Source: Onchidella celtica (taxonomy: Eukaryota; Mollusca; Gastropoda; Systellommatophora; Onchidiidae). Taken from it: a stretch of 64,000 nucleotides of DNA. Shown here piece by piece: positions 29,473-53,599 of this stretch. The notes under the pieces were generated by a model. It did no database searches, was not told where the DNA came from, and saw nothing but the letters and a program-made list of their open reading frames with translations. The stretch is from contig OZ007570.1 in NCBI GenBank assembly GCA_963931925.1, positions 43,546,187 to 43,610,186 on the forward strand. Direction: 5' to 3'. The first letter of the stretch is position 1. Each line of letters starts with the position of its first letter. A program made the translations under genes and the position numbers.

Positions 29473-29642
29473 CTGATTTCCATGGACTTCTCCATCAAAT
29501 GCAACCATCTCTTGTTCATCTCCTCCAGCCTTGCCTGTAGCTTGTGTGAGTCAGACGCCCCCATGGTTCGAGCCACTTGACTGCCAGTATGGTTCAAACT
29601 GTCAAAGGTGTTTTGATGGGAGTCCACTTCAGCCTGAAGGTC
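29473..29642 (-). CDS. Dys: Dystrophin-family exon (human exon 56 equivalent), spectrin repeat
   Basis: A 170-nt internal exon with acceptor GATTAG|GAC and donor ATCAG|GTGGGG, entering in phase 0 and leaving in phase 2. The product starts DLQAEVDSHQ and contains LEEMNKRWLHLMEKS and ends MEIR. It aligns along its length with the part of human dystrophin beginning DLQGEIEAHT and containing LDNMNFKWSELRKKS, including the conserved repeat tryptophan (KRW / FKW). Human exon 56 is 173 nt as I recall, with the same two phases, so this exon lacks one codon. It forms one or two helices of a triple-helical spectrin-like repeat near the end of the rod. Dystrophin links cortical actin and microtubules to the membrane dystroglycan complex; this part acts as a spacer and lies before the dystroglycan-binding WW/EF/ZZ module. 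Invertebrates usually have a single gene equivalent to dystrophin, utrophin and DRP2. Confidence 0.93.
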
Positions 29643-30137
29643 CTAATCAAAGACAACAAAAGACAAACTTGATGTTGCTGGACAGAAACTGTTATGATAA
29701 GGATAAACTAACCTGAACTGGCTCACACAGGGGAGTCCTCATGGAAGATGTGCCGTGATAGTTACTGAAAGTTCCACGAATCGACATTAATTAATAAAAA
29801 TTGTCCACGACAATGCAATCCGAAAGAACAGATTATTTAATTATTTAAATCCTTGTATCAGAAAACGCATAGCCGTGTCATGTTCAAGGCTACAAGATAA
29901 ACATAATATAAGAAAAGAATCGGTAAAATATATGCCCCGAGATGCTCAATAATTTGAGGGGGGGGGGGGGGTGAAAAGAGGTGGAAATGGTGAAAACACA
30001 ATCAAAAAATGAAGAGTTCTGCTGAGTTAAACTGCACTGAAAGACACAATTAATGAGATGCAAAATAGCAAACTGAGGGTAATGAGGCGGAAATAGTGCG
30101 ATATAAATTGATGGGACTGGGTAATAAAATATCATCT

Positions 30138-30162
30138 CCCCCCCCCCCCCCCCCCCCCCCCC
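30138..30162 (+). repeat. Poly-C run of 25
   Basis: The longest homopolymer in the window, ten bases before a piggyBac-like relic. Other long G or C runs are at about 8602, 9598, 10514, 13539, 17161, 27808, 29958, 37627, 55766, 62611 and 63401. Confidence 0.97.
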
Positions 30163-30171
30163 AATATCGTC

Positions 30172-30404
30172 TTAACCCTCTAGGCTCCGCCCCAATTCCT
30201 GCTTGTGGGCCAATTCTGAATTCGTGGGAATTTGTTTTTAGGAACATTATTAAGGTGCTTTTCATGATCATTTAGTTGATTTATTGTGTATAATATAGAA
30301 AACACTAAAATGCTTTGCACGCGCTGAGTTCTTGTCGGAACTGCAAGTCGAGGGATAAATATGTGTGTATCACTGGTGATACATTCTGGTGACTAGAGGT
30401 TTAA
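30172..30404. mobile_element. piggyBac-like MITE (TTAA-flanked, 233 bp)
   Basis: The left end is TTAACCCTCTAGGCTCC; the right end read in reverse is TTAAACCTCTAGTCACC. Size and ends match the element at 27982-28204, so the two probably belong to one family. It abuts a 25-base poly-C run. Confidence 0.6.
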
Positions 30405-30810
30405 AAGCTTTCACGACATGGCACGTCCTCAAAATCAAAGCAGCTCTGTCCGGACGCACGAGTGCGCCTGCATGTATGTGTGTCAAAGAGCGTTAGTGGT
30501 CTGGTAAGATATACATAAATGAACTGCTACTTTTTAAATTTTTTTTCCGTGAAATCATTATGACTTGTGTTCCTAAGAGAAGCATTAGCAGATAGACCAC
30601 CTGTTACCAATGGGACTGCATAGTTCTACAGCAAACTGTTGGGTGACATCCAAAGTTTTCCGTGACCTTTTTGTTGAGTGTCATTTTGTTTTACAGTCTC
30701 AGATGCTTGGATTACACGCCCAAAACATGCGCATACAGATATGGTTACAGTATTTATTTGAAAAGGGACGCTCCGAGCATTAAGTTTGTGTCTGACATTA
30801 TTAAGGAAAG

Positions 30811-30928
30811 CAGGTTGACATGATAACGGTCACGCTGTGCTAGGAAACAGCAAGACGAAAGACAGGATGTAACTGCACGGTAGGACACGAGGAAACTCTA
30901 CCAGAAGCGCCCAACAACAACCCGCACT
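30811..30928 (+). repeat. Dispersed repeat of about 130 bp, copy 3 of 3
   Basis: Contains ACGGTCACGCTGTGCTAGGA, AACAGCAAGACGAAAGACAG and CCAGAAGCGCCCAACAACAA; its left part is shorter than in the other copies. Confidence 0.65.
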
Positions 30929-31290
30929 CCGAGCATAAACGAATTGCTGGTATTTCCGACTATAAGAGAATAGTAGAAAGACTACCCATCATGTGCGATG
31001 TTGGCGATGATGCACGAGTTGTTTACCGGTCATAAGCACCGACCAAATCTTCTGAGAAATAAGAGAAAAGCCGCCAGTGACGTACAAACTGAGAACCTGT
31101 CAATGTAAATAAAAGGAGAGGTGCCCTAGCAACAGATGTTTGTATGGCGCAGTTGGTTAACTGGTGATGGCAGAATTGTGTTAATTGCTTCTACTGGTAG
31201 AAAAGTCTCCGCTCAATAGATTGGTTGGTGGTTATCTGTTCCATCGGCCCCAGTCCAGGACGGGTAGAATGTATGGCTTCGTTTACGAGG

Positions 31291-31351
31291 TTACACGAGA
31301 GAGAGAGAGAGAGAGGGGGGGGGGGGGAGAGAGAGAGAGAGAGAGAGAGAG
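31291..31351 (+). repeat. (GA)n with internal poly-G
   Basis: GA units split by a run of eleven G. Confidence 0.95.
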
Positions 31352-31793
31352 ATTTAGATTTGCTGAGTTCGGCCAGGACGTAAATAATGTCCAAACATAA
31401 CCACTTGTCTGATGGTGAAAAGGAGATTTGGCTGGCTTAGACGAAGTGAGCTAAACAGTTAGGACCTGAAATCTACAAACTAGGTCATCTCGTTAGGCCA
31501 TCGCCACCTGTCCAGCTAAAAAAAAATCAAGGCATTTGCAGGAAACGGATACAGGTAAGTGGAGGGCATGAGAGACTAGGAATATGAACACGTTGGCCGA
31601 GACAGACAGGAAAAGAAGAAGAAGGAGAATACCGAGAGGAAAGTGACAGCACGAAATGGGAGAGAATGAAGATAGAAGCAGGAAGCCGACAGGTTAATAC
31701 AAACATTATGATGGCTCTCAGTGGAAAAAAAAGGCATTCAACGGATAGATAGATAAATTGATAGAAAGGCACACAGGCGATTAGCCTAACTAA

Positions 31794-31899
<106 letters not shown>

Positions 31900-33810
31900 A
31901 GAAAGTACCGATCGATTTTACCCCTCTCTTTCAGCCGTCCATCAAATCGGACTTACGCTAATGATCGGATCCCTAAACATGACACAGAAAACTTGAGAAC
32001 TTAACAAGAAACATTTACAGCACCAGTTATTGTAGCCATTGAACATCAACGACAACAGCAACAAGAACAACAGCTGCGAGAACATCAGTTGCAATGACAA
32101 CAGTGCTTTGTTACCCAGCAAAGTTTTAAGAGCTAGGGAGCCCTCTGGAATTTAAACTTCTTCTACTATAGAAGCGGCAAAGGTCAAGTAGGTACAGCGA
32201 AAAGGGTTTACTAGTAAGGGGGGTGGGGTGGGTGGGGGTGAACATACAAGGGAAAATGTACACTCTAAACAGCAAAGCTAATGCGCGAGTCTAGCCATCG
32301 AACGTGATTACAAGGATGAATTACTTGTTCATCCATTACAGCCAAGTCAGATTTTCTTCTCCAGCTTACTTAACTATTCGTTTTTGTCCGCGTGTTTCTG
32401 ATGGGGAATTAATGGCTCATGAATACATATCAATGCTTGCACAGAACAAGCATATAGGATTTGATGCATAGACGCGCTTAGAACAAACACATCAGAATCT
32501 GAACGTAATATTGGCCGTCGAGAAGACAGGCCAGTGTGCGTGCACTGATGAAGAATTAATGCATTCCGGGAACATACTGGTAAGTGGAATTACCGAATTC
32601 TGAGAATGTCTTGGGAGGAATGGCATGTTTTTGTACCGCTACATCGGGCGCATGCGTTCTGTGGATCTGAACTTATGTTAGTGTCTCTGAGAAATGGCTT
32701 CTGTTTCCTGGAGGTTTTCTTTTCCACTTGTTCACCCACCACCTCTTCCTCCACCGAGGACAGTCTCCTAGGGAGTTATCACTGTTTCCAGCACAATGTG
32801 CACGAAGCATGGAGGGCTCGCAGACGACGTTCTAAGGTGAGACCAGGTCATGTTCGTTTTACTCAAGTAATCTCCATTTTCAGGAAATCGCATGACAGAT
32901 TTGACATTAGGGAAACATTGGACTGAAAATCTCCCTGATATTGAAAGTATCGTTGTTCACAGTCCGTGGCTGTCACGATATGCCCGAAAAATCTATTCTA
33001 GATGGTGATGTACGAGAGATCCTATGCTTAGACTACAGCTGGAAACAGATTCAGAGAAAGGTTCACGGGAAGGATTACAATACACAGTTACTTTGCGTCG
33101 GGTTGGGTTTAGGGATAGGATTAGGGGCCAACAAACAGAGCTGGAACTGGGTTTATGGACAGGGTATATGTTCTGTTTTATTTCTAGTTTGGCACAACAA
33201 AGCCTAAGGTCATGAGTTTAGTGTCTTGGTTCTTACGACCAACCAAAAATGTCGAACTCACCATATATTTTTTTGTTTTGAAATAAACTTTAAAGTGCAC
33301 TGTGTTTCTCATTTCAGGTTTAGCTAAATGTAAATCATTCAAGTATATTCCTGAAAACTCCTGTGTGATGGCACAGATAATTTAAGTGAATGAGTGCACT
33401 CACGTAAGTCAGCTGGAATCAGTGACATCCCGTGTTACCATCAATTCTGTAATGTTTATAGTTACGACAATTTACGAAGGGATGCCCGGTGTTAATTTTC
33501 CGTCATTATGATAAAGGTTAACAGGAAAATCGTGATGTCTGAGCTGACGTTTTGTCATTTTCACATTCAGGTTGTGATTACCCACATGTCGCAAACAGTC
33601 AAGGTAATTCGAGCTTACTTATACATTCTAAGTGATCATCAACTTCTGGTCATTAAGCAGTTCTGTATCTAGGAACTCGATGTAGATTTACACTGAACAT
33701 TTTGTGAGGGGATAGCTGAACTTGCAGGAATAACAATGAGAGGAAAGATTTCACGTCACAACGCGCTGAGGAGGCCCCGCAAAGATTATACTTCCCGACC
33801 AAGCTGATAA

Positions 33811-34080
33811 GACTACACTTTCCAGTTCAGACTCAGCAGGTTGTTAGTCATAATAAAGTGATAGACTACACTTTCCAGTTCAGACTTACCAGCCTATTAG
33901 TGATAATAAAGTGATAGACTACACTTTCCAGTTCAGACTTACCAGCCTATTAGTGATCATAAAGTGATAGACCACTTTCCAGTTCAGACTTACCAGCCTT
34001 TCAGTCATCATAAAGTGATAGACTACACTTTCCAGTTCAGCCTTACTAGCCTGTTAGTGATCATAAAGTGACAGACTACA
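33811..34080 (+). repeat. 53-bp minisatellite, five units
   Basis: GACTACACTTTCCAGTTCAG begins units at 33811, 33864, 33917, 33970 (3-base-shorter form) and 34021; the remainder of a sixth starts at 34074. Period 53, once 51. Confidence 0.95.
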
Positions 34081-34467
34081 CAATTTCTCTGGAACAGACT
34101 AGCAGTTCACTGACAGTAGCTCACACTAGATGTTTCGTGCTTGGGTGTTCTGATGTCTGTGTCGTTGTTATTCTACAGAAGGCGCAAGTTTCTTGATGCT
34201 GTTTAGGATTACTAGAATGCTTATCTGATGGAGGTTCCACCACCGTGAAGGAACTACTTGATTCTGTGATGATTGGGGAAATGGTAGGGCTACACCAGAA
34301 GATGACACCGTGGCCATAATCCTCCAGCGCCCAGAATAGCATCCTTGTTACATAAAGTACTGCCCGTGAGGACATAAATATGTTTAATCTCACGGTTATG
34401 GAGATTGGGAATGTGTAGTTATGTGGGGTAGAGTACAGTAAATGACTGTGCGTGGGAGAATGGGGAG

Positions 34468-34501
34468 GGGGGAGAGAGAGAGAAGGGAGAGAGAGAGAAG
34501 G

Positions 34502-34547
<46 letters not shown>

Positions 34548-34655
34548 GGGGAGAAAGAATGGGAGAGAGAGGGGGAGAGGGTGGAGACAGGGGGGGTGAG
34601 AGAAAGACAGAGAGTGAACGGGAGAGAGAGTGAGGGAGAGAGAGAGAGAGAGATC
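34468..34655 (+). repeat. GA-rich microsatellite
   Basis: Imperfect GA/GGA repeats; the reverse strand reads as Ser/Leu repeats. Confidence 0.95.
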
Positions 34656-35088
34656 ATGCTAGATGGGGGAGGGAGGACACAATTTCAGTAAAAACACAAC
34701 CATCAGCCCAGACAGACATAAATGGAATTGTCATGTCAACTACAGTAACACATCCATACAGAGGATTATCAGATATCTAATTATTATGGTAGTATAGTGC
34801 GAAAATGCATCATTTCGAGGTTTCCAGGGAATGGAAAATTAATTGCATTCTCAAGCAAAAATAATCAATCTAGACCACTTGATGTCAATGTAAATCAATG
34901 GTCCTGACTTCAAAGATGCTCGAATCTGATATTTATGTAAGCTCATTTTCGTTCCAACAACAAAGTGCATGGCAGGAACTCGACAATTTACGATAATATG
35001 ACAAAGCTGTACCGTACATGACAAATGGCTTACCATAACACTGAGCAGTGAATCCTAAAGCAGTTACTAGGATTGGGTAAAGTGGCAA

Positions 35089-35298
35089 CAGAAAGAGAGA
35101 CTGAGAAAGAAAGAGAGGAGAGAGAAAGAGAGGAGGATAGAGAGAGAGAGAGAGAGGAAGAAATAGAGGAGAGAAAGAGGAGAGAGAAAAGAGAGAGAGG
35201 AGAAGAGAGGAGAGAGAGAAAGACAGGGGGAGAGAGAGAGTGAAAAAAAAAGAGAGAGAGAAGGAGAGAGAGAGAGAGAGAGAGATAGAGAGAGAGGA
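35089..35298 (+). repeat. GA-rich microsatellite
   Basis: Imperfect GAGA/GGA/AGAA repeats over about 210 bp. Confidence 0.95.
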
Positions 35299-35727
35299 CA
35301 TAATATAATATTAAAAAAGCAGTAAGGCAGGGAATTATACCATAATGAAAACGGCTTTGCTATCAATGTAAATCATTTTCTGTTAGGACTTTTTGTATGT
35401 GATTAGAGAAAGTCGAGCAAAAAAAGCCCATGATTCACCGCCAACCAATATTGGAAAGGTGGATAATGCCAGGCTTGAAACCACGTCAAACGGGAACAAA
35501 AAAGCCACCGTGCCATTAACTGACAATATGTTCGATTGCATGAGAGGAAAAAATTGTCCCGGAGAAATGGAAAATCAGGTTCATTATTTCTGCGGTTCTA
35601 ACGAAAGGGGAAAGTGAAAGGAGAGGGAAAGAAAGGGCGATTCAGGTCGCTGAGGCTAGGAGAGGTGGATGAATAAAGGGGATTGGCTGGGGTGCGGTGG
35701 GAAAGGAGGATAGTGAAAGACATAATT

Positions 35728-35850
35728 GAAGAAAGAGAGAGAGAGAGAGAGAAAGAAAGGGAGGGGGGAGGTGAGAGAGAGAGAAGGGGGGAGGGAGGGA
35801 GACAAAGAAAGAAAGAAAGAGGAAGAAAGAGAGGGAGAGAGAGAGGTATG
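35728..35850 (+). repeat. GA-rich microsatellite
   Basis: Imperfect GA, GGGA and GAAA units. Sequence around it (about 35700-35720) and around 35930-35975 is also repeated: GGTTGGC or GATTGGC, then GGGAAAGGA or GGGAAGGGA, and ATGAAAGACGTAATTGAAGA against GTGAAAGACATAATTGAAGA, a local duplication about 240 bp apart. Confidence 0.9.
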
Positions 35851-36393
35851 AACATAGGGGCCATTCTAGAGTTCTAACAAAAGGGAAAGAGAAAGGACAG
35901 CAAAGAGGAGAGATGGACGAATAAAGGAGGTTGGCGTGTGTGGGAAGGGAGGACCATGAAAGACGTAATTGAAGAAACAGGAATGACAGAGGAGTTGGGA
36001 GGCCGAATAATTGATGCTGCACAGTGACACTGGGATGTGGGTGTGAACGGGGGGAGGAACAAACAACAGAACAGGAGGTGAGATGGGGAGGTGGTAAAAT
36101 AGCAGTTATTAACTTCCGGCTTCTCAGTGTCCACGGCAATCAATGAGGGAGACAGCAGCCATCTTGAGCTGGCCCCTAGTGAGCCCGGAATCAAGAGCTC
36201 GCCATTCAAACGCGGTCATGCAGAGAACTGAGGGCAATGGGAGACAGAGAGGCAATGTCATAAAGAGTCTTTTCTAGGCCCGGCAGCACGGGCTAGTTTG
36301 GTCAGCTCTGGGATGGTAGAGCTGCAAACCACAGAATAAATATAACACAGAATTACAAATCGCCTCTTCGGTATGTTCCGCCAACGCTCGGTC

Positions 36394-36403
36394 CGCCATT
36401 TTA
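36394..36403 (-). promoter_or_regulatory. YY1-type AAAATGGCGG with an open frame
   Basis: On the minus strand AAAATGGCGG opens MADRALAEHTEEAICNSVLY and about 20 more codons to a stop, without a clear donor. It is 0.95 kb from the similar motif at 37342, and the two face away from each other. Confidence 0.2.
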
Positions 36404-36540
36404 ATTTGTCGTATGCGACAGCTGTTTACATCATTCTGTGGTTTCCTCGGGACCTCATGGTCATTACGCACATTTTTTATCTTTCGACATGGAGGAAAGT
36501 AGGTCTAATTCTACATGATAGCAAGCTAGTTAGATGTCGC

Positions 36541-36762
36541 CATTCATTTAGCCATCCATCTATCCATCCATCCATCCGCCGGTCCGTTTGGCCGTCCATC
36601 CACCCATCCATTCATTCATCCATCTATCATCCATTTACCAGTGCCTCCATTCATTAATCAGTCTCCTTATTCATCATCCATCAATTTAATCCATCCATCC
36701 ATTCATTCATCCATCCATCCTCTTATTCATCCATCCAATCATCCACCCACTCATCCACATGC
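36541..36762 (+). repeat. (ATCC)n-like microsatellite, degenerate
   Basis: CATC, CATT and CCATCCAT units with interruptions over about 220 bp. Confidence 0.95.
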
Positions 36763-37341
36763 AGACTTGGGATCACACTGTAATCCTCACGAGAAATGCA
36801 ACCCAAAATGAGGCAAGGCAGAACCTGCTCACTACCACACATACATGTTGCGACACGTGTGTTCGTAACCGTGCCACAAGTTTCGCAAGTTATAAAATAC
36901 TCGTGATCTAGATAGCCTATGGTGATGTGCCCACCTTCCGGAAGATTCGAACACTGGAAATTACTGACAAGCCTGAAATTATTTTTTATTTCAGTCTGAA
37001 CACGGAGAAGGCACATGTTCAAATGAATCAATTGTTCTTTATTAGGCTAATAAGATTGCAATTTTAAAAGTATTAGAGGCCGAAATGAGGGTACGTCACC
37101 ATAGACCTAGATTTTCCTAACTTAAGAAACTGATTACATTTAAAATAGATCTCTGTCTAGATCTAGCATCTCTAGTAGACCTCTAGTCTTGATTTCCATT
37201 CAGCCGAAATCTTAAAAATGTCACAATACACGATTAACAAGGGTACACGGTATGATGTTCATATTGATAGCCAACTTCGCACAATGCAACGCAACGCACA
37301 GTGGGCAGCGCCTATAGATACGAGGTATCATACGAGAAAAC

Positions 37342-37376
37342 AAAATGGCGGGTCGAGAACCAGTTTTGTGACGTCA
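37342..37376 (+). promoter_or_regulatory. Promoter-like pair: YY1-type AAAATGGCGGG and a full CRE
   Basis: AAAATGGCGGG at 37342 matches the YY1 core that often overlaps start codons of housekeeping genes, and the palindrome TGACGTCA lies at 37369, 17 bp further. The ATG opens only eight codons before a stop, so no protein is predicted. Confidence 0.25.
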
Positions 37377-40300
37377 CTCAATGGGGATTGTGCGTCTGCC
37401 TAATTATAAGTCTGTGTTGCAAACTGCAATATCGGTTACACATTATTTTCGGACTCATGGTATACCGACAGTTTGGAAATACAACATCCTGATAAAGGTT
37501 TGGAGGGACATAATATATACCGAAAAACAAAAAGATAAACAATTTCATTATCGTACAGTTTGCATCAATGGTTCCAAATGCTTTCAAACCTGTTTTGTCC
37601 CATATTCGTGTTTCAAGGCTTCATATCCCCCCCCCCCCCCCCCATGGACACCCACATACATGCACACAGCAATTCAAGTTTTCTTCCGTAGTTATACATC
37701 AAAACTGCTAATGTGACCCGGGTCAAAGTAATTTAGCAATGGAAATAGGGTTGAATGTCAGTGGAGTATTATACACAACCCCGAGTAAGAGAAATGAAAG
37801 CGAATGTGTACTTTTACAATTCATTCAACGTGCATTATTCAACGGCCTAGATTTATCCAGCCTAGAGGACTAGGAATCAGACTGAGAGATTTATACCGGG
37901 AAAGACAGAACAAATATTGCTGAACAGCGATTCAAAGAACACACGTACATCAGCGACAACAAAATCAAGAGCTTAAAGTGTATTGTCCACTTGTGACAAT
38001 ATGAACGCTTTTTCCACGCCAGTAAACAGAATGCAAAGGTCTCAACCTATCATTCCATCCTCACCTTCTACCGACACTACAATGCTTTTTTCTCTCACGT
38101 TCCTTTTTTTTTTCTTTTTGGCCCACCATCACTGGACTTCAAAGAGCAGACCAAAATGCCAATCAATGTTTGCGCCCTCTAGCTGGCCAGCCTGATGAAC
38201 AGGACCAGCGAGTAACCGCTTACACATCTTTCCATTTAGTCTGTTTCGCCGACAAAGCCAGATTCTATTTGCTCAGACAGACAAACCGGGGACGTTGGTT
38301 GCTCTCCCGCCTCTCTTCAAATACTTTCTCCTAATTGGACAGAAAACACAGGTCTGACTTTCCATGGGTGCCGGACCACCCGAAAGTGATCAATCCGGGT
38401 GGGACAAGATGGACATCAGCACTAGATCATGTCCAATTTGTCAGTCTGATTATCTCATTTACCGACACCAAATGGCCCGCGCTCCTTTAGATCTAACTTG
38501 GCTGCACCTTTCTGCAAATTCTTCGTTCTATCTAAAACGTTCCATATTTCTCATGTTTCGGTAGACGCACGACAAACCTGACCTAAAGAGGACGACCCTC
38601 ATGAACAGTTACGGTAATATAGTGGTTTGACGGTCTTTGCATTTGTGGAAAACGAAAGACTTTTAAACTATGAAAGAAGACTATTACTCTGTGTTTTTCA
38701 GAAGTAAAAATGAAGAAAACCTACTTCTTTTGTACAGACGAGATCAGATGCATGTAAAAATTCATACCCTTTTGTACTCATGCCATCAAGGACGTGGCGG
38801 ACTATTTTCTTACATGATTCATTTTCTTCTGATCGGCCCCACTTTCCGTCTACCTTTTTTTTTCTTTGAGGAAAGGGGAGGGGGAGGAGCTGAGAATCCA
38901 TTTATGATGATTGATCGAATTTGGGTTTCACGGTCCGACTTGATTACGGCCAGACTGCGCCCTGCATGGGTCACTGGTGAGAGGTCTTATCGTTAAAACA
39001 ATGGAAGCTGAGAAGCTGCCGACAATGGCCCATGGCTGGGAGCGCTATCTGTTCTCATGAAAAAATGTATGTACACTGTATGGAAAATGCTTCCATAGAA
39101 ATAAACAAAAATTTCACTCAAAGTAATTTCTCTCGTGTTTACCTCAATGGCACCTGCAATTCTTTTTATTCCCGAGATGGCGAGACTTTAAAGATCTCTG
39201 CTATTCTGGCAGATGTGAAGTTTTATCCTGCAGATGACAAAGTGTACGGACGATACTGACCAATATAAAACCATTCGGGTTCTACAAAGAACTATACAAC
39301 TATTATTACTTGTAGTAAATACAGTAAATGAACAAAATCACCTAACAAAGAAATGTCAGGCCGACAGACCGGGTTGAAGAAGAAATTCACAGCTGCTGCA
39401 AACTGATCCCTGTCCCGAAACTGTGCATTAAAGAAAACATGCCATTAGATGGCCTGTTCACTGTGAGTATCTTATTGGTAGCACAGTGTACCCATCATAA
39501 CAGTTACACAATGCATGACCATGAACGAGCCTGAAACCACTGGCACAAATATGCCCTGATTTAACTAAATATAGAATACACTCTGCGCATTGGCACCGAT
39601 TCCCGTGTGTCCTGATACAGAAATAAATAAAACTACAAGCTTAAGTACAGTAACCGATATAGTCCGACTACAAAATTAATCACGTTTCTCGTGTCATGCT
39701 GACCTACCGCAACAGACTTATTCTGTCACTCTCCTGACCACCATAAGTCATATGAATACATCACAGCTACATATCTGCCCATGTCTAGTTGTGGGCATTT
39801 AATCTTGGTAAAGTGAGAGATGGCGATGGAGATGAACTGAATATAATTATATCGCCTTTAAATGGCCAAAGGTTACCAGGCTAACAACGGACGGGGTAAT
39901 GGAGTTCGCATGACGAGCGAAACAAAGCAGCCGGATGACACAGGAAGAGACGATAAACAACCAGAGCATCACATCGTCAATAACAACAACACAGCGACGC
40001 GGTCAGTAAACTGCAACAACTCCAGAATAAACTAAATGGATCTGATGGACAAACTGCCCCCATTGTGGAAGCCATTCTGATGATTCAGACACGATAGGGA
40101 ATGGGAAAACTGTGATCCTCTCTCGTATAGTTCAGCTACTGACACTTGGAAGTAGAAAATGATTACTGCGTGAATAAAACGCTGAAATTCAGGAGTTTTG
40201 AAACTGTCCACAAGAGGCACTGAGCACCAATTCACATGTACATCAAAACCATAAAAGAACACAATAAATTGTATACAATACAGACCCATACACACACACA

Positions 40301-43300
40301 CTTGCAATTGACTGAATTGACATGTGCACTAAGATATGGCCACTGAATGAAGAACAAAAAAAAAAAAAAAATGCTTGTGATGAGGGCTTTTCATATAAGC
40401 TGGTTGTGAAGGTCACAACGACAGGCCTGAAAGTTGGGACAAAGAAGGAGATTCTACAGTATGAGCCATTGTGGCACTGAGAGGCCCTAGGGCAGAGCCT
40501 TCACTGCCCCTGTCTAACTGCGGCCTGTTTGCGATCCTCTTCGCCCGAAGGAAGTAATATGGCTATGAGAGCACAGGAAGAGGAGCATTCCTCATTGAGC
40601 ACAGTGGCCAATTTGTGAGAGCCATCCCTGATAGCAGAAACGTCCAGTCAGTGGAATTAATTAATGGTCTCCAGGCACACGAGAAGACAAACGACCACGA
40701 TAAACCAGCAACAGTGAGCTACTCAGATCTGGTATGCTAGAACATGGTAAATCACTGTCCTAGCGTTTACGGGGGCATCGGCGAAGAACGGGAGACAATA
40801 TGGGAGATCCCAAAATGCCAGGCATGTGTGGGTAAGAGACGAGGTCGAACGAATGGGAATGCTTGCAAAACTGGAGAACTGGTGAGAAAAACGTGTTCCT
40901 CGGCAATTAGAAAAGTATGCGCTGATGTTCTTACAGATTGGCATCCGCCGACAAGTAAATATAAACAAACCAACACGACTTGTGAAATTAAAAAAAAGAA
41001 AAAGATCAGGATCGAAAGAGGCCTAAACGAAAGCTGGCACAGACGTAGGAAAAAAAAAAGAGTAGATTACGTACATTATATCATTTATATATACAAACAA
41101 AACAGCCACCTGCGCACTAACAGTCAATCACTACCCCAGCCCCCTTGATGACTAGATGGTCTTAGTGGACTCCGACTGACGAACAACACAAAATTAATAT
41201 TTATCTAACATTCAAAATGCGAAACCGCACAGCCAGTGGGATCACCTTGTGACATCTCCTCACGACAATTTTATAACCTCCTTGCCTCACGATGAAACCT
41301 TCTCAAACAAGAAGGAGGGCACCGACAAAACCCAGGACAAGAAACAAACTCCTTACCAGCAAAAGATGTTTGATCCTACCCAAATACTTGCTTCCGTTTG
41401 TCAGAACTGGCCCCCGACTGATTTTCTACTGACAGTTACTTCCCCTTGCCTTACTTTGAAGCATTTCGACACCGGATTTTGGCTGGCAGCAAGAGCGACT
41501 AGAAAAAGCAAACCGGAAACTGCTAGGTACGAAACAATGTAAATAAAGCAAGAAACCCCAAATTCCCTAGCGGCCAAACAGTCACACAAATAGACCAGGT
41601 AAAAATCGGCCCGTACCGACAAGAATCACTGACGTGCAGCCAGGTCGGAAGTAGCAAAGAATTTCGGAAGGTAAGTCTTTACCTAAACGTCAAACGATTT
41701 CCTCACCTGTTTTCTAAGGAATAATGCCCGCAACCTGAAAATTCCATACTACTTCAAAGTTAATCTCTGAAGAAAAATAAACACAATTTTTTGTGTGCAC
41801 TCTAAGACACTCTCTGCCCAAAACCCGAAAATCTTTCCTAGAATGTTTAAACTTGAACATCAGAACTGTTAACTTTTTCACTTCAGAGTTACTGTAAAGC
41901 AAGCGTTAAGTTCGAAAGTAACTCACAGAACTCCTCCCCAAGAGGAGACTCTCAACTCTTGTTTTCCCGGTTGTTTTACACGTCAAAAATTAGTAGTTGG
42001 GCGATCTGAATTTCCAAATGTGCAATAATAAAATGTTTTCAGTTGAAACACTTGCTGAACACAATGATAAAGTTGTACAAATTAGAATAAATCAATGGCT
42101 TGTTCATTTCATTTGCATTTTGGTCTCTTTCTTGTAGCGAATCCATTTCAGCCGAAGATGACAGAGTGATTGTCCTTCTTTCACGTTTTGAAAAACGAGG
42201 TCAATTCAGTTTGCAGCTCGTGCAGTTACACTTGGAAAAAAAACACAAGGCACCCCGAAATCCTCACGAGTTTCCATACGGCACCATGGGAACCGCAGGG
42301 GGGAAAGACAAGAGAACGTTTCTCTGTTTCATTTGTTTGGGAACGGAGCCTGAAAGGCCAGACTGATACAGAGATAACTGGGAGATAACAAACGAATACC
42401 AATGAAAACCGATACCGCTTTCCTTCCCGGTTGAAACAGAACTGTGACAAGCCGTGCGTTCAAAAGTAAACAGCTGATTAGGGTGAGTGCCTTCTGTGAT
42501 GTGCATACAGAATGTGATACCTAGAGAAAGCTGTTACATTTTTTTCCGAGTCAGCTTACCAACGTGTCAAGAATAAAAGTAATAGACCACCATGGTTTAG
42601 ATAATTTTTTGTCTGCAGCATTTATGAATTCAAACCGGACCAGAAATAACTAATGCGGTATGGAGCAGACATAGCCAATTATGTTTGCCTTTTTTTTTCA
42701 ATGACGAGCGAAGAGTGTGAATCAGCACAGCAAATGTTTACATCTTAATGAAAATGGCCTTGTCCGTGTGAGGAAAAACGAACAATGTACAGGCACACAG
42801 AATGTAAAATAAAATGTCTCTATCATGATGTTAAATTACAGAAAATAACAGGACAATTCGTCAGTTACACAGGCGGGTAATTTGATAACGCTGAGGAAAT
42901 AAATCTAGTAACAGGAGAACAGCACATATACAAATTTTAACGTGGCAATGAAAGATTCCACATGCTGAGAAATCGTATTTTGGGTGTCAGGTGTTCCTCG
43001 CTGTCCCAACCCCTCAGTACAATTATTTCCATTTATTCCAGCTCCCTATTTTATTTTCTGTCTCATTAATAATCAAACAGAATCGCAATCAGCTTACTTC
43101 AGGTACTGGATGTTTAAAAGCCAGGAATACGTTTGGAGACTTGGTAAGGAAAGGTCAAACTTGACGAACAATCGTGTGGATAAAATGCTACGATGTGAAG
43201 ATTTTCGGAGGGAGTTGTGAAGATTTTCAGAAAAGTACCCACAAATACAAGAAGCATGCAGAGGCAGCAGTATCCGGAACTACTGCAGCACACAGGCTTT

Positions 43301-46300
43301 TGTTCGATTTCACATTCAAAACTGACAGGCTAGCGAACAGGTTAATGTAGTGATCCTAGTGATAACACCATGCAGTGTCAGCAGGTGGAACGTTTTACAT
43401 GTGACCTGGTGTTTACGGCTAAAATATGGCTGTGTCAAAGAACATTTCTGTACAGGCCTAAACACTCACGTGCTCAAAATGGTGGAGTAAGCGTTTCAGA
43501 GTGAAACTGAGCTCTATCATCTGAGGGCAATAGTCCAGGTAGCTAGCCAGCGTTCCCACCTGTTTGCTGTCCCCAGCCAACACCAAGGTACGAACATCCA
43601 CGTAAACAACAGCATCAGTAGGTGTACAAGTTGAACATGGATCAAACCGAAAGCCTTAATGCTGACACCACCTTGCACACAACATGACTCCCAAAGTGAC
43701 TGGACTTATTTGGATGCACAAGTGTCAACATTTGCAACGTAATTGATTTCAGCTTAATTGCCAATTGACTTTTAAGTGCGTCCCTTTAGCTCTCTTGTGT
43801 GTAACCAAACCATAGAGCCATGTTGGATTTGATCGACCCTGTGATCCTCAGATATCAGGTTTCTTGTCACCGGTATCTATTCCATTAATTATAGGAACAT
43901 GTAATGAGACACAAGCCGTGCTGACGAATCCAATACATTGCCCATACAACCCTGCGTGCCAATGTTAAGTGGACATGCGAGTCATTCCGCATTCTGACAA
44001 CTGTCCAAATAGAGATAAAAAAAAAGTTCTATTCATTCTTTTTCCAGTCTTCACGGATTCACACATTTATCTATCTTAGTGTGTCAAAGTAAATAATATG
44101 AATAGCTATTATGAGCACCCAGTTTTCCCTGTTGAGCTGGCCATAGAAATGAGGAAAAAGTTACTCAATAGCTTCTTGAGGAAAAATGGAACATTTTTTC
44201 CCCCTGGTATTGCCATGGAACTGAATTTCCTTTGCTTGCCTGAAAATCTTATCAACATCTGCTCCACCGTTAGAGCACTGAAACAGAACGGTAAATCACA
44301 AAATCACACACAGAAATCACAATCTTGTCCAGGCACAAACGTTAGAAAACACCCCGCAGTCAGTTGACCACAGTAACCACTGTCCATCATGGCTAATCTC
44401 ATCACGACAAACTGTAAGTTTCGTCTGTTTTGAACACTGTCTTGGGCTCAATGTACTCTTTGATTCAGTAACTAAATCAGACGTGTTCAAGCCGAATGAA
44501 AAAAGCACGAGTATACACAAAATCAGCAGTTCAATTAATACAGTTTGCTCTAAATTCCCTGCACACATTTCCCAACAGTTTCTTTCATCCATGACACTCT
44601 CGACATTCAACAGATTAAAACAAATCACTTATTCATTATTCTAATCAATTTAAAATGTAAAATATGAATTATGAATATGTGAAAATAAACACATTAAAGA
44701 ACATGTAAAACAGAAACTAATGTCAAAGAATACGTTTGTAAATTAACCAGCTTTCATTTGCACAAAGCTGAATAATTCATCGCCATAACTAAGGCTATGG
44801 TCAATTTATAAGGAAACCAGTGTTCCACAAAGCCGGTCTAACTTTGATTATCCATAAAGTCTTTCGGGATTTGAGCTGGGGTCAGATAGTACAGTCTTTG
44901 TCAAAGGTTGATACTATAAAAACAGTATCCTACATTCTTTTTGGGTCAACAGCTATCACTCAGGCGGTTCGCACTCTGCCAGAATATGATTCCCTTTTTC
45001 TTTTTGGTCCTATTTAAGTTTCGATAACGAGTAGCTTTTCCGATGCTTGGATACTCACAATTCACATACTGAGAGTTCAGCTTAAATGTTAATACACCAC
45101 TGGGACGCAACGTGTTAATAGTGTGTGTTTGCACCAATTGCACTAGCGGTAGTGTGTAGAATGCTAACGAATCATCTGTAGCCACAATATAATGGTATTG
45201 TTTGATTTTTTTTTTAAAAGGTGGCTATGAATGCAAGACCAACCACTATTGATATAATATGAAATACTTAAGGTAGGAGGACTTGTAAGGTAGTAAAAAC
45301 TAGTATACGCCTGTAACTGTCATGCAATTCCACACACCTTGACGTAGAGTTTGCTGTTAGTTATGAAAACGTGGTAAAACTGTCCTACGTTTCATCATTT
45401 AAGATAGAATCCCCTTCAATAAACAGTAATTTTATCATGGGTGGCAAAAAAAGGTGGTCTGGAGTTTTGATATTTTATACGAAGCTTTGTTTTGTCTTTC
45501 ATATTTCGTGCTCTGACCAGCGAGAACTTCACATGTGTTATAACATTCAAAGCATATTCGTTTAAGGTCAACAATGGAAACTCAGCGATGTCAAAGGCCT
45601 GCCGGACTGACTCATAAAGGTCATACCCGGTATTATAAGGCATAAATGTAAATACTCGAGACCCACAGAGCTTTAGTGGATAGACCAAGGGTAAGCTCTA
45701 GAACTACTGGCTCCAGTTTTTACTAATATGACTGATGCCAAAGAAATATCCCCAGGGTAAAGGGCCATGTGCTCTATCACTTTTGAAAGCTATACCCAAC
45801 AGGCCCACCACCCATTTAACTACAAAGAACACAACCTGGTTCATACAGGTACCAGTATCGCTTTCATTTACCTCCTGGGGTCTGCGTGGCATTGCATTCA
45901 ATTAGTAACTGGCTCTTTTAATACCTAAACTAATACAATACACATACTTTTCTTGCACCATTCAGTTACTTTATTTGAGTCTGACTTCTGCCTATGCCAC
46001 CAATCCAGCATACCTGGTGGGCCACAAAGCAATCAAACACAACGTATACTAAAATTCGCAACCTTAAAAAGATTCTGATGTCGAAATTCAGAGGGTATCG
46101 GTGAAATTGGCTGGTTTGGTTTCGAGGGTTAAAAAGTTCCTGTCTCAAGTTTTTAGTGCAATTGTGGCAATCGACGAAACCTTTTGCAATCATGAAAACT
46201 ACAGCACAAGCATTACAAAGAACAGCGCCAACAAAGAAGCTGTTTTGATAAGGTCTTAGGAAACTGATTATTTTCCACTAACAAGGATTAAAAACACATT

Positions 46301-46728
46301 AAGGCACTATTATTCCTGTCTTAATGAAGAAGGAGCTTCTGAGCACTCTGAAATTTCTTATTGATCTGACGCATAAAACTTGCAAGAAAAACGCGACAAA
46401 AGTTGATACTGTGAAGATTGGTTTCACTATGATTACGATCTTGGACCAATGAAGATCAAGGGTTATCGATTCCTTTCATCATTAGAAAGAAACGAACCTT
46501 TATGACAGACGTAAACGGATTTGAATGCGTGAGACATTCAAGAACACTCACATTTATTATATGCCGCACTCTCAAAACGTGCGCCATTGATAACTGGCCT
46601 GTTTTGGATTTTGGTTTATGACTATTTCTATGACTTATCCCCCGTTCGCGTTATTTGTACAAGTTTGAACAAGTCATTGGGTCTATTGGCAGTCTGCGAG
46701 CTACATTCACTGATACAAGCCATCAAAT

Positions 46729-46772
46729 AGTTCCTATCTCCGTCCCTGACAGTTCCTATCTCCGTCCCTGAT
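46729..46772 (+). repeat. 22-bp tandem duplication
   Basis: AGTTCCTATCTCCGTCCCTG plus two bases occurs twice in a row, differing only in the last base. Confidence 0.9.
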
Positions 46773-47180
46773 CACACCTATGGCGAACCCAAATACGTTA
46801 TTACAGAGAGAAAGGATATTACAACACAACATTACGGGTTCAATCAGATTGACGTACACGTTGCTACGAAAATAACTTTAATTAGCCCAGGCGGTGTTGC
46901 TTTGTTTCTGTCAGAACACTGAGCGAAACGATGAAGCGCCACCGAGTTTTTTTTTGTTTTTTTTTAGCAGTAGAATGTGAACATTTTCATCCTACGAACG
47001 GCACTTTACAATTAAAAAAGACAAGAAGAAAACAATAAACACTTTATACAGCCCACCTTAATAAAGCACAGATGCATATTTCAAACTGTAGCACATCTGA
47101 ACCAATACATCCGGTGCACAGACTGCAGTGAGAATGTAGCAGTCGGATGATGAGACACAAAAAGCAAACGTTGCACGTAA

Positions 47181-47412
47181 ATATCACTTTTCAATAACTT
47201 ACATCCAGTAAACGGTCAAGTCATAGAGAAATATCACTTTTCAATAACCAACATCTAGTACACGGCTAGAACATAAAGGAATATCACTTTTCAATAACTA
47301 ACATCTAGTACACGGCTAAAACATAAAGAAATATCACTTTTCAATAACTAACATCTAGTACACGGCTAAAACATAAAGAAATATCACTTTTCGATGGTTA
47401 ACATCTAGTACA
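47181..47412 (+). repeat. 50-bp minisatellite, five units
   Basis: ATATCACTTTTCAATAAC or a near copy begins at 47181, 47231, 47281, 47331 and 47381, an exact 50-bp period; the rest reads ACATCTAGTACACGGCTAAA. The last unit is diverged and truncated. Confidence 0.95.
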
Positions 47413-49142
47413 CCACGGATGGCTAAAGAAAATTACCCCCAAAACAAAACATTTTGGTACATGAATTGCCAGCGATCACACAAATGGCTGTAATGGAGGA
47501 AAGCCCACGTGAAAAAAATCAATTCCAGGTAGGAAAGTAGGAAAACTTTTCCATAGACTAACACGGTGCGGCGATGGAATAGAATGGTATGAGCTGTAGA
47601 AGGTGGGGCAACAGGGAAGGGAAAAGTCCTAGGAAAACTAACAAACACACGGACATATCACTTCAAGGGAGATAACGCGGGAAGCCAAGGAAGGGGGACA
47701 ACCACGTACCTAATCTTACTACGTGCCTCACTGGTATTAGTGCGTCCAGCGGTATGTTTCTGTGCCAACCTGTGTTCTGTACTGTTCTGGTGTACATCAC
47801 AGTGCCCAGTATGAGCTCGAAGAGACCAGCAATAAATTTCGTGACCTCTTATGCCATTCTTCTTTCATTAATCTCAATCTAAGTTAGTAAAGACGGCAAC
47901 AACTATGAATAAATCGAATTTAACGATGACCTTTGACGCTGGGTGATTTACTGAAACACTATCTGTTCAACTCGTTTAGAGTAATGTTATGGTGTACTTG
48001 GAACGGACTTTCTGAAAGAAATTCCTTTCCTGAGATGATCCATTAGGAAACTTCTCTCTTTCTCCAGCATGCCTCTCCATACAACTTTATACCGGATGTG
48101 TTACAAAGCTTTTTCCTTCCTCTACCTAGAATGCTGAACACGACAAATGGCATCATGACATGGGGCCAGCGCTTATTAGGCTTTGACAATCAAGTGTCAA
48201 CTATGTAAAGGTCCTTCGGCTATTTTTTTATGCTGTTTCACTATCTGCATCAAAATGTTCCGCGTGTTTTATTATTTTTTTCCCTAAGAAATCGGCTATT
48301 TTTCTTATACTTTGTGGAGTTCTCGAATCAAAATGTCCCTTCATATTTTACAGTTTGTCAGAAAAATAGAAGCATTCCTGAGAGCTGATCAGTGTCATCA
48401 AGAAGAAAGCGATGAATGGAATAGATCAGAGTACAGAAAGAGACAGAAGAAGCAACGTTTTGCTAGCATTAATGTGGCACCGACTAACAGTGAGGAAACC
48501 AGATTTGATAAGGCTTTGCTGACCATGGGTGGGTGGACTCGAACAAAATACGTCGACTGCAGTAAAGACATTGAACACAACACATGTATTCTGTCATCTT
48601 GAAAGAACCATATATGACATACACTCATACAGTATCAGCTGTCCAGCTCGTCTACACTTCGCGGCTATGATAACAACAGTAATGGCACCAGTCCCACGCA
48701 GAAACACCCATACAATAAAAGAAACATAAACAAATAATGACAATAAAATAAACAAATATGACTGAACAATACAATGAAATAATAATAAAAAGAATTTCTA
48801 TAGCGCATTTCTAACAAAATTATTACTCAATGCGCTGTACATTGCATCAATGATTCATGCATACACTTTCCAAATCTCATACTAAAACACACACTCTCAT
48901 CCATACACACTCTCATTTTCACACACATAGACGCTCTTAGTCACACAGCATTAGCTAATATAATCAATCATAGCATCAAAGTACAGAATAGAATTTTGAA
49001 AATTTAAGTTTCAGAGGAAAAGGTGATGTTTTACGCTTTTCTTAAAGCTTTCAAAATTCGGTGATTCACAAATGCTTAAGGGTATCTGATTCCAGATAAA
49101 AGGTCCACGATAATTGAAGGATCTATGGCCTATAGTTTTATA

Positions 49143-49226
49143 GTTTTTAGATGGGATTCTAAAGATTGTTTTGTCACTTGATGATCTTAGTGAACGAGAT
49201 GGTGTGTAGACTTGTAAAGAATTTTT
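49143..49226 (-). repeat. 84-bp segment duplicated inside the LINE (source copy)
   Basis: Encodes LKNSLQVYTPSRSLRSSSDK and following residues in the C-terminal block of the RT ORF; a perfect second copy lies 714 bp away at 49857-49940. Confidence 0.95.
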
Positions 49227-49856
49227 GAGATAGCTGGGTGCGGTGTTATTTAAACATTTGTAGCAAAAAACAACAATTTTGTATGTAATTCTTTGTGTTT
49301 TAGGAAGCCAGTGCAGTTCTTTTAACAAAGGCGTAACGTGGTCAGCTTGTTTTTTCTTGGTAATCAATTTGGTTGCGTTGTTTTGAACGACTTGAATTTT
49401 AGACAGTTCATCTGATGTTATTCCAGCAAGAATAGAATTGCAATAATCTATTCGAGATAAAATGAGTGAAGTAACTCAAGTTTTGGTAATAGCTTCTGTG
49501 AGGAAATTTCGAACCCTGCTGATGTTTCTTAGTTGGAAACGTGCATTTCTGCAAATATTATTTACTTGAGATGTGAAAGACATATCAGAGTAAAAAAGAA
49601 CGCCACGATTTTTTATGCACGAAGATGATTGTATGATATGTCCGTCGACGTTCAACTGGATGTTTGGTAGATCACTTATTTTAGCAACATAAGGGTTCGT
49701 ACACAACATGGCTTCAGTTTTATCTTCATTAAGTTTTAATCTATTGCTGTTCATCCATTCTTTTACTTTGATGATACAATTGTTGGTACAAGAAATTAGA
49801 TCTGAAAGATGATCTACGTGAGAACTTTTATAAATTTGACAATCGTCTGCCTATAG

Positions 49857-49940
49857 GTTTTTAGATGGGATTCTAAAGATTGTTTTGTCACTTGATGATC
49901 TTAGTGAACGAGATGGTGTGTAGACTTGTAAAGAATTTTT
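49857..49940 (-). repeat. 84-bp segment duplicated inside the LINE (insert copy)
   Basis: Identical at all 84 positions to 49143-49226, which is the natural place of this sequence (peptide KNSLQVYTPSRSLRSSSDKT). Here it sits between the QGSVLGP part and the ADD motif of the RT. At its left border the source has TTTTATA between CCTATAG and GTTTTTAG, which the insert lacks. Confidence 0.95.
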
Positions 49941-50178
49941 TACAAAGTAAAATAGCTTCATATCAAAGCTTGTCAAAATATCAATGAGAGGCTGAGTGTA
50001 CATGACAAACAAAATGGGACCTAGGACAGAGCCTTGAGGTACATCCCAATCTATAAGAAATGTCACAAATCATACTGTCCACCAATAGTGGGAGCCTTGC
50101 CCGTTCTTGCATTTGTACAGGATATCATAAAAATCACAGAAAATTTAGTGGGTCGCAGCTGATTCAAAATATGGCAAA

Positions 50179-50424
50179 GAAGTTGAAGGAGGAAAGCCTC
50201 GCGTAAGCAATAATACCAAAACGATACCATAAAACCCAAAGGAAATGGAAAGACAAATCAAGCTTGTTTAATTTCTCCATCAGTTCAATTTTCCAACCTT
50301 TTTTTTTTTTTTTTTACCCGATGAAGCTTTAAACACCGAAAGCTTAACTTGTCTTCCTTAACCTTTTACTGCATCGGTTTGGTATTATTTCTTACGCCCG
50401 GCTTTGCTACCTACAACTTTTTCG
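50179..50424. mobile_element. Foldback repeat with GATGAAGC...CCGAAAG hallmark
   Basis: The left arm (50179-50265) contains GGAAAGCCTCGCGTAAGCAA and AATACCAAAACGATACC; the right arm (50340-50422) read in reverse contains GCAAAGCCGGGCGTAAGAAA and AATACCAAACCGATGC. The arms face each other over a T18 run. Single-arm relatives lie at 5745-5910 and 56691-56830. Confidence 0.65.
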
Positions 50425-51104
50425 TTTTATCATATGTTGAATTTGCATTTGGACATACATGTTTAGAGCTAATTCCGAGCTGAACGCTGAGACAGAAGGG
50501 AATGGATAAAGGATCAGAGGCGCAAAGTGGATGATTGATAACAGGCGGCAGAGAAGAGGGAGGCGTGGCAGAAGTCAGCATGATTTGTTTCTGGTGTCTG
50601 GCATGCGGGTCCTAATGTCCAGCCTACACGCACTGGCCAGGTTAAGAAGCTCCAGTTTGCAAAAACTGAATCAGCCAAGTTTATAATTCAGGAGTGTAGA
50701 ATATCTGATTCTGTCTGAATATCTGAGCTTCGCTCTTTGCTTGAATATGAAAATGCTAAGAATCCATTTCGCTTACACTTCCCTGGAGACTTGAAATGCC
50801 CGAGGAAGTACAATCACAATATACAAGACTGCCTCACAGGTCCACAATGTAATCGTGCAAAAAAAAAGAACTCCAAAACACTTCATACTAGGGGCCACAG
50901 GATCAAGCCATCGCTGGTGAAAACAACGACCTGTATGTACTATTGTGGGTTCAAAACTATACATGGCTTCTGCACCAGCAGAAACCTGCCCGTAAGACGT
51001 ACGGAAAACACATGAAAACTAAGGACCTATGAAGGCTTCCTATGAGTGTTAATATATATGATGCAGGTACGGCAGTAAAAGTCATTGTTTGTTATTATTT
51101 ATCT

Positions 51105-52532
51105 CAGTGGTTCTCAACTTTTTTCAGGCAATGGCTCCCTTGGGTCCCAAATTTTCTGACCTCGCCCACCCCCCCCCCCTTACCCCGATCCCAACATGCA
51201 CGGGTTAGACATAAATTACGTTAAGGTTTCCGAAGATTTTTTAATAGCTCTTGATTTACTGATTATTGAGATATGAACAAAAATAGAAAATATCCTTCAT
51301 CAAATGCATCAACAATTGGTTGTTCCAGTTCATAAAACCTATGCACATGAATGTACTGTTAACATGTCGGCGACTTTCCCGCGGTTGGTGTGCTGTGGTC
51401 GGCTATGTAATGTCGGTGTTTGTGGGAAGCAAACGCAGATCACCCTCCCACACAATATCTGCTGTTCCTGTGTTTGAGATATATTTATGCTGGTCTCGAT
51501 CCTTTTCCTACAAATCAGAAACATGGGGGAAAAGGCCACTAGATGGAGAAGGAACGCCTTTCCAGAGGGAAGAATAGATGTTCTGCTGTTTTATCCTGAA
51601 AGCTTGGTACTATGGTAGCCCTCTTGTTGGAAAATGTCTTGACCCTCGATGCAATGCTGGAAATCGAGTAATTCCTCTTGCAAACGCCTGGCCGTCACGT
51701 CGCATGGTAACCACTAGGGTTAACAATCCACCCAGGGGCATCTAGACCTTGGAGGTCCTAAAATCGCCTGCGCATGACTTTGCCAAGTTGAGGAAAGTGA
51801 AGAATTTGTCCCCGTTTTCCATAAATCCAGCTCGACAGAGAAATTCGACAGGATATAATTACTTTGCCTTAACTAGATTGTTCTGTTCAGGTTCACTTCA
51901 TTAAACTCGGCAAGAATTTTAATGTGCAGGCAGCTTCTGTATCCTCTCTCCGGCTGGCATGCTGAATGTTACTGCTAAAAAAAAAAAAAAAAACACTCCC
52001 GCACTGATTCAAACAGCGCCAGAAAAAGTTGAAGTCAGTTACTTATTGTCAAGCAACGGATCTAGAGAAGAAGTCGCTCAAACCTTTCAGCTTTCAAGAT
52101 ATGGATGGCGAGAAGGCCAGAAACCTATTTTTATGAAAAGTCCATGAAGCTCTGGTGACATCCCATTATTGATGGCTGCTCCACCTGTTACAACTGAAAT
52201 TATATTGGTCATCATATGGCTTTCTCCTCTAAAGTAATCCTTCACCTACTATCTTTAGATCTACTAGCATTTTTTTGAAGGTCAAGGAAATTGAACAGCG
52301 TGAACTTGACATGATTTTTTTTCTAACAATGAGCATAAATAATAAAATAGGGTTCTACACTTAACTATGGCCAAGACATTGTGCAAAAATGCAATCTCTA
52401 GTTTGGAAAATTAATTCGCCCCCCTATCACCCCCTTCGTCGTTCTCGCCCCTTTTGTCCTCCCTCTCCCACCCCCCACCCCCGACTCAAAATCGCCCCTA
52501 GGGCGGAGATATGGCCCCGTTGAGAACCACTG
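51105..52532. mobile_element. Non-autonomous hAT transposon (1428 bp) beside the candidate first exon
   Basis: The left end is CAGTGGTTCTCAAC; the right end in reverse is CAGTGGTTCTCAAC, an exact 14-bp terminal inverted repeat of the hAT type. The flanking 8-bp direct repeats are ATTTATCT (51097-51104) and GTTTATCT (52533-52540), 7 of 8 identical. Subterminal DNA is C-rich. Internal frames are short with no recognisable transposase. It was inserted 120 nt downstream of the first-exon donor. Confidence 0.87.
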
Positions 52533-52659
52533 GTTTATCTGTTTAGGAGAGACAGGTCGGGTAAATCGAACATTGTCACAGATCACGAATAATATCTGAT
52601 ACTAACAAGGGCTGACAACAAGGACAACAACTAGAGTTAGGTCCCCTGTGACCAATTAC

Positions 52660-52794
52660 CTGAATGTACGCTCTCTGATGAGCTGCTGCAATCGCCGCAC
52701 GTGCATTGAACTGACGGAAGTTGTTTGGCACCGATGATGACCCACGTGCTCGATGATCCTCGCCAAAGTACCCATCTGCCATAGCACAAATCAT
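52660..52794 (-). CDS. Candidate first coding exon of a short (Dp116-like) dystrophin isoform
   Basis: Reading the minus strand, an in-frame TAG lies 15 nt before ATG ATT TGT GCT ATG GCA, so the reading frame cannot continue from an upstream exon and this looks like a true first coding exon. The second ATG (52782) has the better context (G at -3 and G at +4) and may be the real start, giving 41 rather than 45 residues. The peptide runs MADGYFGEDH... to ...HQRAYIQ, is rich in Ala, Arg and Ser, and has no domain I recognise. It ends at a clean donor, CAG|GTAATT, in phase 0. The next recognised minus-strand exon (29473-29642) starts in phase 0 with GAC CTT CAG, and is the equivalent of human exon 56, to which the Dp116 first exon is spliced. 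Seen: start, stop, donor and phase. Inferred: that it joins across a 23-kb intron. It could instead belong to another gene on the same strand. The donor lies 120 nt from a hAT insertion. Confidence 0.62.
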
Positions 52795-52990
52795 GAAAGC
52801 GGTCCACTATCCACGCAAGTCCTCTGCCTTTCTCCACTGGAAGACTTCCAAGATTTCTACAAATTTATGTCTTTTTCTAAGGTCGGATCATCTTCATTGT
52901 CTGTCTTTCAAGCAGACATTACCTCCACTCTGACCAGTTTTCCACTGGAATTGGAATAATCGATGCACTGCTCAACAAACCCACTGTACG
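52795..52990 (-). promoter_or_regulatory. Putative 5' UTR and promoter of the short dystrophin isoform
   Basis: This is the DNA immediately upstream (higher coordinates) of the candidate first exon. On the minus strand a TATA-like CATAAAT occurs at about 52863-52869, roughly 70 nt before the first ATG, which would leave a 5' leader of about 40 nt. The block has two near copies of CCAGTGGA and a palindromic GAAGTCTTCC, but no GC box. A weak alternative reading is that CCTTAG near 52876 is a splice acceptor and a non-coding exon lies further upstream; its pyrimidine tract is poor. Confidence 0.22.
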
Positions 52991-53599
52991 GCGCGAGGAT
53001 GAGCTAACTTTAATCTCACTGCAGATCCTCATCGTTCTTAATTGAAACTAATTCTGCCAAAAGAAAAACAAAAGAGTTCCTGACCACAGACCGATGCTTG
53101 GCATCATTTAGATGAACTGTTTGTTTTCCTTTTGCGGTCCGTATTTTCACATATCACACAACCATGATGCTACGCTTACAACACAGATTCACGAAATCAA
53201 GGCACACGGATCTTCTTCCCAAGTTGTACTCACACATTTAAATCGTGAAACCTTACTAAGGATTTGCATCAACTGTTGGTTTTCAGGTTGAATCTTCCTA
53301 ATATCCTAAAGGTCGGTCTGGGATTAATCTCTTTTCATTTCTCTGACAGCATTCAAGAAAGTATCAGTTTGTCTCTTTTCATGAACTGTTTTAACACCTG
53401 GTTTTCACAGATTATGCACACATAAATATTTCAAAGTTCTTAACTAAATTTGTAACTGCGGTTTGACTAACTAGAGGTTGTGCATACATCATTAAGAAAC
53501 CCCTAGATCTCATGGATCAAATTTCAGAACTCGTTTATAAACTGCATTGGTTACATATGCATTACAGAAATAGGGACAGAGAGAGCGGGCGGGGGGAGG

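Follow-up and report, generated by a model that had tools for sequence, protein, structure and literature searches.

A candidate Dp116-like first exon in the intron 55 orthologue of dystrophin in the mollusc Onchidella celtica

Short forms of dystrophin function in nerve, glia, and retina, and the reason for which they retain start sites of their own is, to our knowledge, unclear. The dystrophin gene of the mollusc Onchidella celtica raises the question of whether a short form also begins there, as vertebrate Dp116 does, with a private coding first exon joined to exon 56. We analyzed a stretch of 64,000 nucleotides (nt) (GCA_963931925.1, OZ007570.1:43,546,187-43,610,186; hereafter designated the window) within the 1.14-Gb assembly of 43 contigs, to which flanking DNA was added, 70 kb on the downstream and 130 kb on the upstream side in the direction of the dystrophin gene, giving 264 kb in total. 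Judged from its sequence, the minus-strand segment 52794-52660 of the window is likely to be the real first exon of a Dp116-like short dystrophin.

The dystrophin exons were mapped by tblastn with a human dystrophin probe, which placed, in this order on the minus strand of the window, exons 56 and 57, part of exon 59, exons 60-62, and the first part of exon 63. With the flanks added, the orthologous pieces stay in order on one strand through the WW, EF-hand, and ZZ domains to the coiled-coil region, and the upstream flank contains several further spectrin-repeat pieces of dystrophin, also in order. Weak pieces with expectation values (E) of 0.29-0.66 (those at 89723 and 78875, and exons 60 and 61) were accepted on order and splice sites, and four off-order hits (E 0.13-1.9) were set aside as noise; human exon 58 gave no match in the tblastn search of the window and flanks. 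The exon 56 orthologue (29473..29642, minus strand; phase 0 in, phase 2 out) has 170 bases, compared with 173 in human dystrophin, and opens ..TTAG|GACCTTCAG (DLQ..., phase 0) and closes ATCAG|GTGGGG. It is 36% identical to human dystrophin from DLQGEIEAH onward (E 7e-8) and matches residues 2733-2789 of the PDB dystrophin 9c3c_D (E 3e-14), and no match to it was found in the viral contigs searched. The human tblastn matches, the PDB match, and the ordered pieces in the flanks rule out a locus other than dystrophin. The Pfam spectrin repeat match of exon 56 begins at profile position 45 of 105, and thus a protein beginning there would start in the middle of a repeat.

The exon 55 orthologue lies beyond the window, at 77698-77509 of the minus strand on the scale of the window (E 4.6e-4 to human), and ends ...EEFLEQYK with a phase-0 donor, AAG|GTTAGT, at 77509. 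In the human alignment, this piece and exon 56 abut, 77509 being followed by DLQ at 29642; no exon is therefore missing between them, and the segment 52794-52660 lies inside the intron 55 orthologue. Among the 23 gaps that separate mapped pieces, this intron is the largest at 47.9 kb, compared with 17.4 kb for the next and a median of 1.0 kb, with the reservations that mapped gaps may conceal unmapped exons and that the 17.4-kb gap depends on a spectrin-like piece, 107271-107130, chosen by eye. Its large size matches the pairing of intragenic dystrophin promoters with large introns that is reported in PMC1790709, citing Neuman 2005.

The candidate private first coding exon (MICAMADGYFGEDHRARGSSSVPNNFRQFNARAAIAAAHQRAYIQ; 52660..52794, minus strand) consists of an ATG, an open frame, and the phase-0 donor CAG|GTAATT, with an in-frame TAG upstream (52807..52809, minus strand), separated from the first ATG by four codons. 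The frame runs for 45 codons from the first ATG and for 41 from the second (M5; 52780..52782, minus strand), which is the better start codon, GCTATGG, having a purine at -3 and G at +4, that is, both Kozak positions. The original prediction, a start-codon exon with a stop just upstream and a phase-0 donor, encoding a private peptide of about 41-45 residues and lying 23 kb upstream of a phase-0 equivalent of exon 56, agrees with these observations, the measured distance being 23.0 kb. The donor is compatible in phase with the exon 56 acceptor, and the frame is open across the predicted joint. Seven candidate first exons were obtained on the sense strand of intron 55 by requiring a phase-0 donor (score at least 3) and an ATG frame of at least 10 codons, and only this one has the full Kozak context. 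Upstream of it, a possible splice acceptor (TTTTGTTTTTCTTTTGGCAG|A; 53054..53055, minus strand), with 14/16 pyrimidines and C at -3, would possibly place a noncoding 5' exon and the promoter still further upstream.

The coding character of the candidate exon was assessed with a codon model whose training set comprised 17 kinase stretches and 22 dystrophin pieces. The exon scores 0.116 per codon, ranking at percentile 54 among 80 coding samples (mean 0.112, standard deviation (SD) 0.108). Of 604 noncoding open stretches, which overlap one another (mean -0.148, SD 0.177), 3.3% score as high, corresponding to a likelihood ratio of about 5. AlphaFold2, given the single sequence, predicted a helix at residues 24-43 of the peptide (mean predicted local distance difference test score (pLDDT) 67.6; block pLDDT 79 and 86). 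The last 20 residues are predicted to be unusually helical, with a helix propensity value of 0.274. Among 8856 open 24-residue peptides preceding GT, which overlap one another, about 2 have a value as low, the candidate included; among the 156 with a donor score of at least 3, the candidate alone does. This test was picked after seeing the predicted helix and the published description of the G-utrophin exon as helical. A 511-bp segment around the exon has a single match in the genome, itself, as does the peptide, and a repeat was rejected as the source of the exon on this ground, with the reservation that the DNA search skips very common words. When aligned with the 24-residue vertebrate Dp116/Dp118 peptide anchored at the splice joint, the candidate is equaled by 41 of 3000 null peptides (1.4%) sampled from the 8856 open peptides; shuffling gave p values of 0.0065, 0.007, and 0.0165 at three gap costs. 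The codon, helix, similarity, and copy-number tests overlap in what they measure and are not to be multiplied.

Several observations weigh against this assignment. When the pattern is defined as an ATG open reading frame (ORF) of at least 41 codons reaching a phase-0 donor at least as good as that of the candidate, it occurs once on the sense and twice on the antisense strand of intron 55 (20 times in the 264 kb when both strands and the real exons are counted), and simulated introns contain it at a mean of 0.56 (Markov-1, 200 runs; P(≥1) 0.455) or 0.48 (Markov-2, 400 runs; P(≥1) 0.378). These simulated and antisense rates are near the observed one, and thus the bare anatomy, ATG, upstream stop, and phase-0 donor, is no more than chance would give. 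Adding the full Kozak context leaves one ORF on each strand (Markov-2 P 0.06), the antisense one included. Moreover, the candidate donor carries T at +5 and scores 4.59, compared with a range of 1.98-7.01 for 8 donors of the dystrophin gene, the peptide is without a Pfam or PDB match, and the broader codon model gives 0.119 to another candidate, of 23 codons, at 33943. The dystrophin-only codon model is neutral for the candidate exon, at -0.03 per codon; this model is biased to spectrin composition, and the kinase-extended one was then made, both being reported here. The CpG ratio around the exon is ordinary for intron 55 (rank 294-466 of 950 windows), and a CpG island as a promoter mark was set aside on that account; the exon's own CpG count is in the top 2.8%. 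Without anchoring, finally, the score of the local alignment with the vertebrate peptide is unexceptional, being reached by 11.7% of the null. The original view that the private peptide has diverged completely is rendered doubtful by the weak anchored similarity. A rival explanation, a chance ORF ending in GT with any short isoform starting elsewhere in intron 55, draws on the roughly 0.5 such ORFs expected per intron of this size, the two found on the antisense strand, and the neutral dystrophin-only model; we nevertheless regard it as rather unlikely, since the codon score, the helix propensity, the Kozak context, the lone match in the genome, and the weak resemblance to the vertebrate peptide all tell against it.

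Two further explanations keep an exon in intron 55 and assign it differently. A small candidate exon overlooked in the original prediction (MSIRGTFSNYHGTSSMRTPLCEPVQ; 29713..29787, minus strand), with the phase-0 donor CAG|GTTAGT (score 4.63), an ATG, and an in-frame stop just upstream, adjoins exon 56 and could itself be the Dp116-like start, the human exon S1 being also close to exon 56, at 755 bp (PMC5664101). It is the poorer candidate, however, since it lacks a Kozak match, has a noncoding-like codon score of -0.108, is not helical (91st percentile of the null), does not resemble the vertebrate peptide (25-31% of the null scoring as well), and would leave an intron of 70 nt to exon 56; we consider this assignment highly improbable. 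Alternatively, 52794-52660 may belong to another nested minus-strand transcript, or may be part of a noncoding or poison exon of dystrophin entered through the acceptor at 53053. A good acceptor does precede the ATG, and the resulting exon, 53053-52660, would have 394 nt and break the frame of the long transcript. On the other side, both the phase and the predicted helix suit the dystrophin acceptor, and the 23 kb between the candidate and exon 56, searched against Pfam at E 0.01 in three minus-strand frames, contains no domain except a weak reverse-transcriptase remnant, a search that short domainless exons would escape. Such an origin of the exon is thus quite unlikely in our estimation.

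From the candidate exon and its setting, we infer a promoter, a transcript, a splice, and a protein of a short dystrophin as follows. Transcription would start inside the intron 55 orthologue, upstream of the ATG and perhaps upstream of the acceptor at 53053, and the product of such a start would lack the actin-binding domain together with the greater part of the rod. Translation would begin at M5, in its strong context, or at M1, and the phase-0 donor would be spliced to the next dystrophin acceptor, that of exon 56 at 29642. The product, presumably of about 110 kDa by comparison with human Dp116, would comprise the last spectrin repeats and the WW, EF-hand, ZZ, and coiled-coil parts. Its private peptide is predicted to open with a loose head (about residues 1-23), after which the helix 24-43 would run into exon 56. 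Because the first codons of exon 56 fall within a spectrin repeat, this helix could replace the lost beginning of that repeat, and the private helix would then continue into the repeat encoded by exon 56.

Known short dystrophins and utrophins share parts of this arrangement. Human exon S1 lies in intron 55 at a distance of 755 bp from exon 56; its peptide has 10 residues, or 24 if translation begins at an upstream ATG (PMC5664101). Like vertebrate Dp116/Dp118, the Onchidella candidate is situated in intron 55, is predicted to use exon 56 as its acceptor, and would be a coding first exon whose frame continues into exon 56. Anchored at the junction, the two peptides show a weak similarity, H-[RQ]-[KR]-x-Y and then, ahead of the end, a hydrophobic residue. 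In contrast to S1, with its 755-bp spacing and 10 or 24 residues including two cysteines (PMC5664101), the candidate is 23 kb away and has 41-45 residues and a predicted helical end. G-utrophin (Up113) likewise has its first exon in intron 55, encoding a peptide reported as strongly alpha-helical (PMC1790709), as is predicted here; it is, however, a vertebrate paralogue. Among jawed vertebrates, Jin et al. 2007 (PMC1790709) report the first exons of G-utrophin and Dp116 to be conserved.

The invertebrate cases bear on the age of the start site. Jin et al. 2007 (PMC1790709) place the origin of both sea urchin SuDp98 and Drosophila Dp205 in the orthologous intron and conclude from these cases that the promoter is ancient; the main evolutionary point is therefore already in print, and the ancient position of the intron 55 start is not new. 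SuDp98 differs from the candidate in that its translation starts internally, and Dp205 in being a larger product (PMC1790709). In Drosophila, three short products, Dp186, Dp205, and Dp117, come from internal promoters (PMC2958114), and expression of Dp116 in the adult Drosophila heart is mentioned, as a second-hand citation, in PMC5664101. A Met codon conserved in exon 56 of vertebrate and known insect dystrophins is reported as the ancestral start of DRP2 (PMC1790709); it is present in Onchidella (29517..29519, minus strand; LEEMNKRW, aligned with human NMNFKW), so that an internal start in the sea-urchin style is also possible. No Dp116-like start in a mollusc was found among the matches listed in the open PubMed Central literature, as judged from titles and the beginnings of abstracts. 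A stronger proposition, which we regard as unlikely, is that the private exon itself, and not only its place, predates the split of protostomes and deuterostomes, as a coding first exon common to mollusc and vertebrate short dystrophins; under this proposition, its final residues (H-x-[RK]-x-Y...|DLQ) would restore the spectrin helix interrupted at exon 56, and the head would have diverged.

The remaining dystrophin features of the window, all on the minus strand, are the orthologues of exon 57 (25642..25798; tblastn with the human probe and splice sites), part of exon 59 (21522..21647; tblastn), and exon 60 (20897..21034; approximate 5' limit, weak match, E 0.12), two spectrin-repeat coding pieces in the exon 61 region (19853..19962, weak match, E 0.12; 18850..18946, tblastn), the exon 62 orthologue with the start of the WW domain (4868..4935; approximate 5' limit), and the start of the exon 63 orthologue (WW domain; 1..42), which continues into the flanking DNA. 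In the 4.8-kb intron 62 (4867-45, minus strand), no Dp71-type start was found as an ATG exon of at least 6 codons with a phase-2 donor scoring at least 3.5, a search that a weaker donor or a noncoding first exon would escape. Intron 55 contains, at 49014-50069 on the minus strand, an element resembling a long interspersed nuclear element, with broken reverse-transcriptase frames (RVT_1 E 6.4e-5, below the curated cut-off). Between dystrophin exons 57 and 59, the plus strand has a 168-residue open frame with a basic, Lys/Arg-rich start (24007-24510). Elsewhere in the genome, the haemocyanin beta-sandwich domain PF14830 has 33 matches, all on one contig (C7) in three clusters near 0.3, 2.5, and 59.3 Mb, and none in 14 control genomes; we take this domain to be a mark of molluscs, and the genome looks molluscan.

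If the candidate exon is real, the mollusc case would be new and, should the anchored similarity hold up, so would the hint of a common ending of the private peptide. With a mollusc start exon in this position, the fly and sea-urchin cases would be joined by a third major branch, and selection on the private peptide could be tested. It also suggests a structural reason for a coding start exon, namely that exon 56, beginning inside a spectrin repeat, may need a helix ahead of it.

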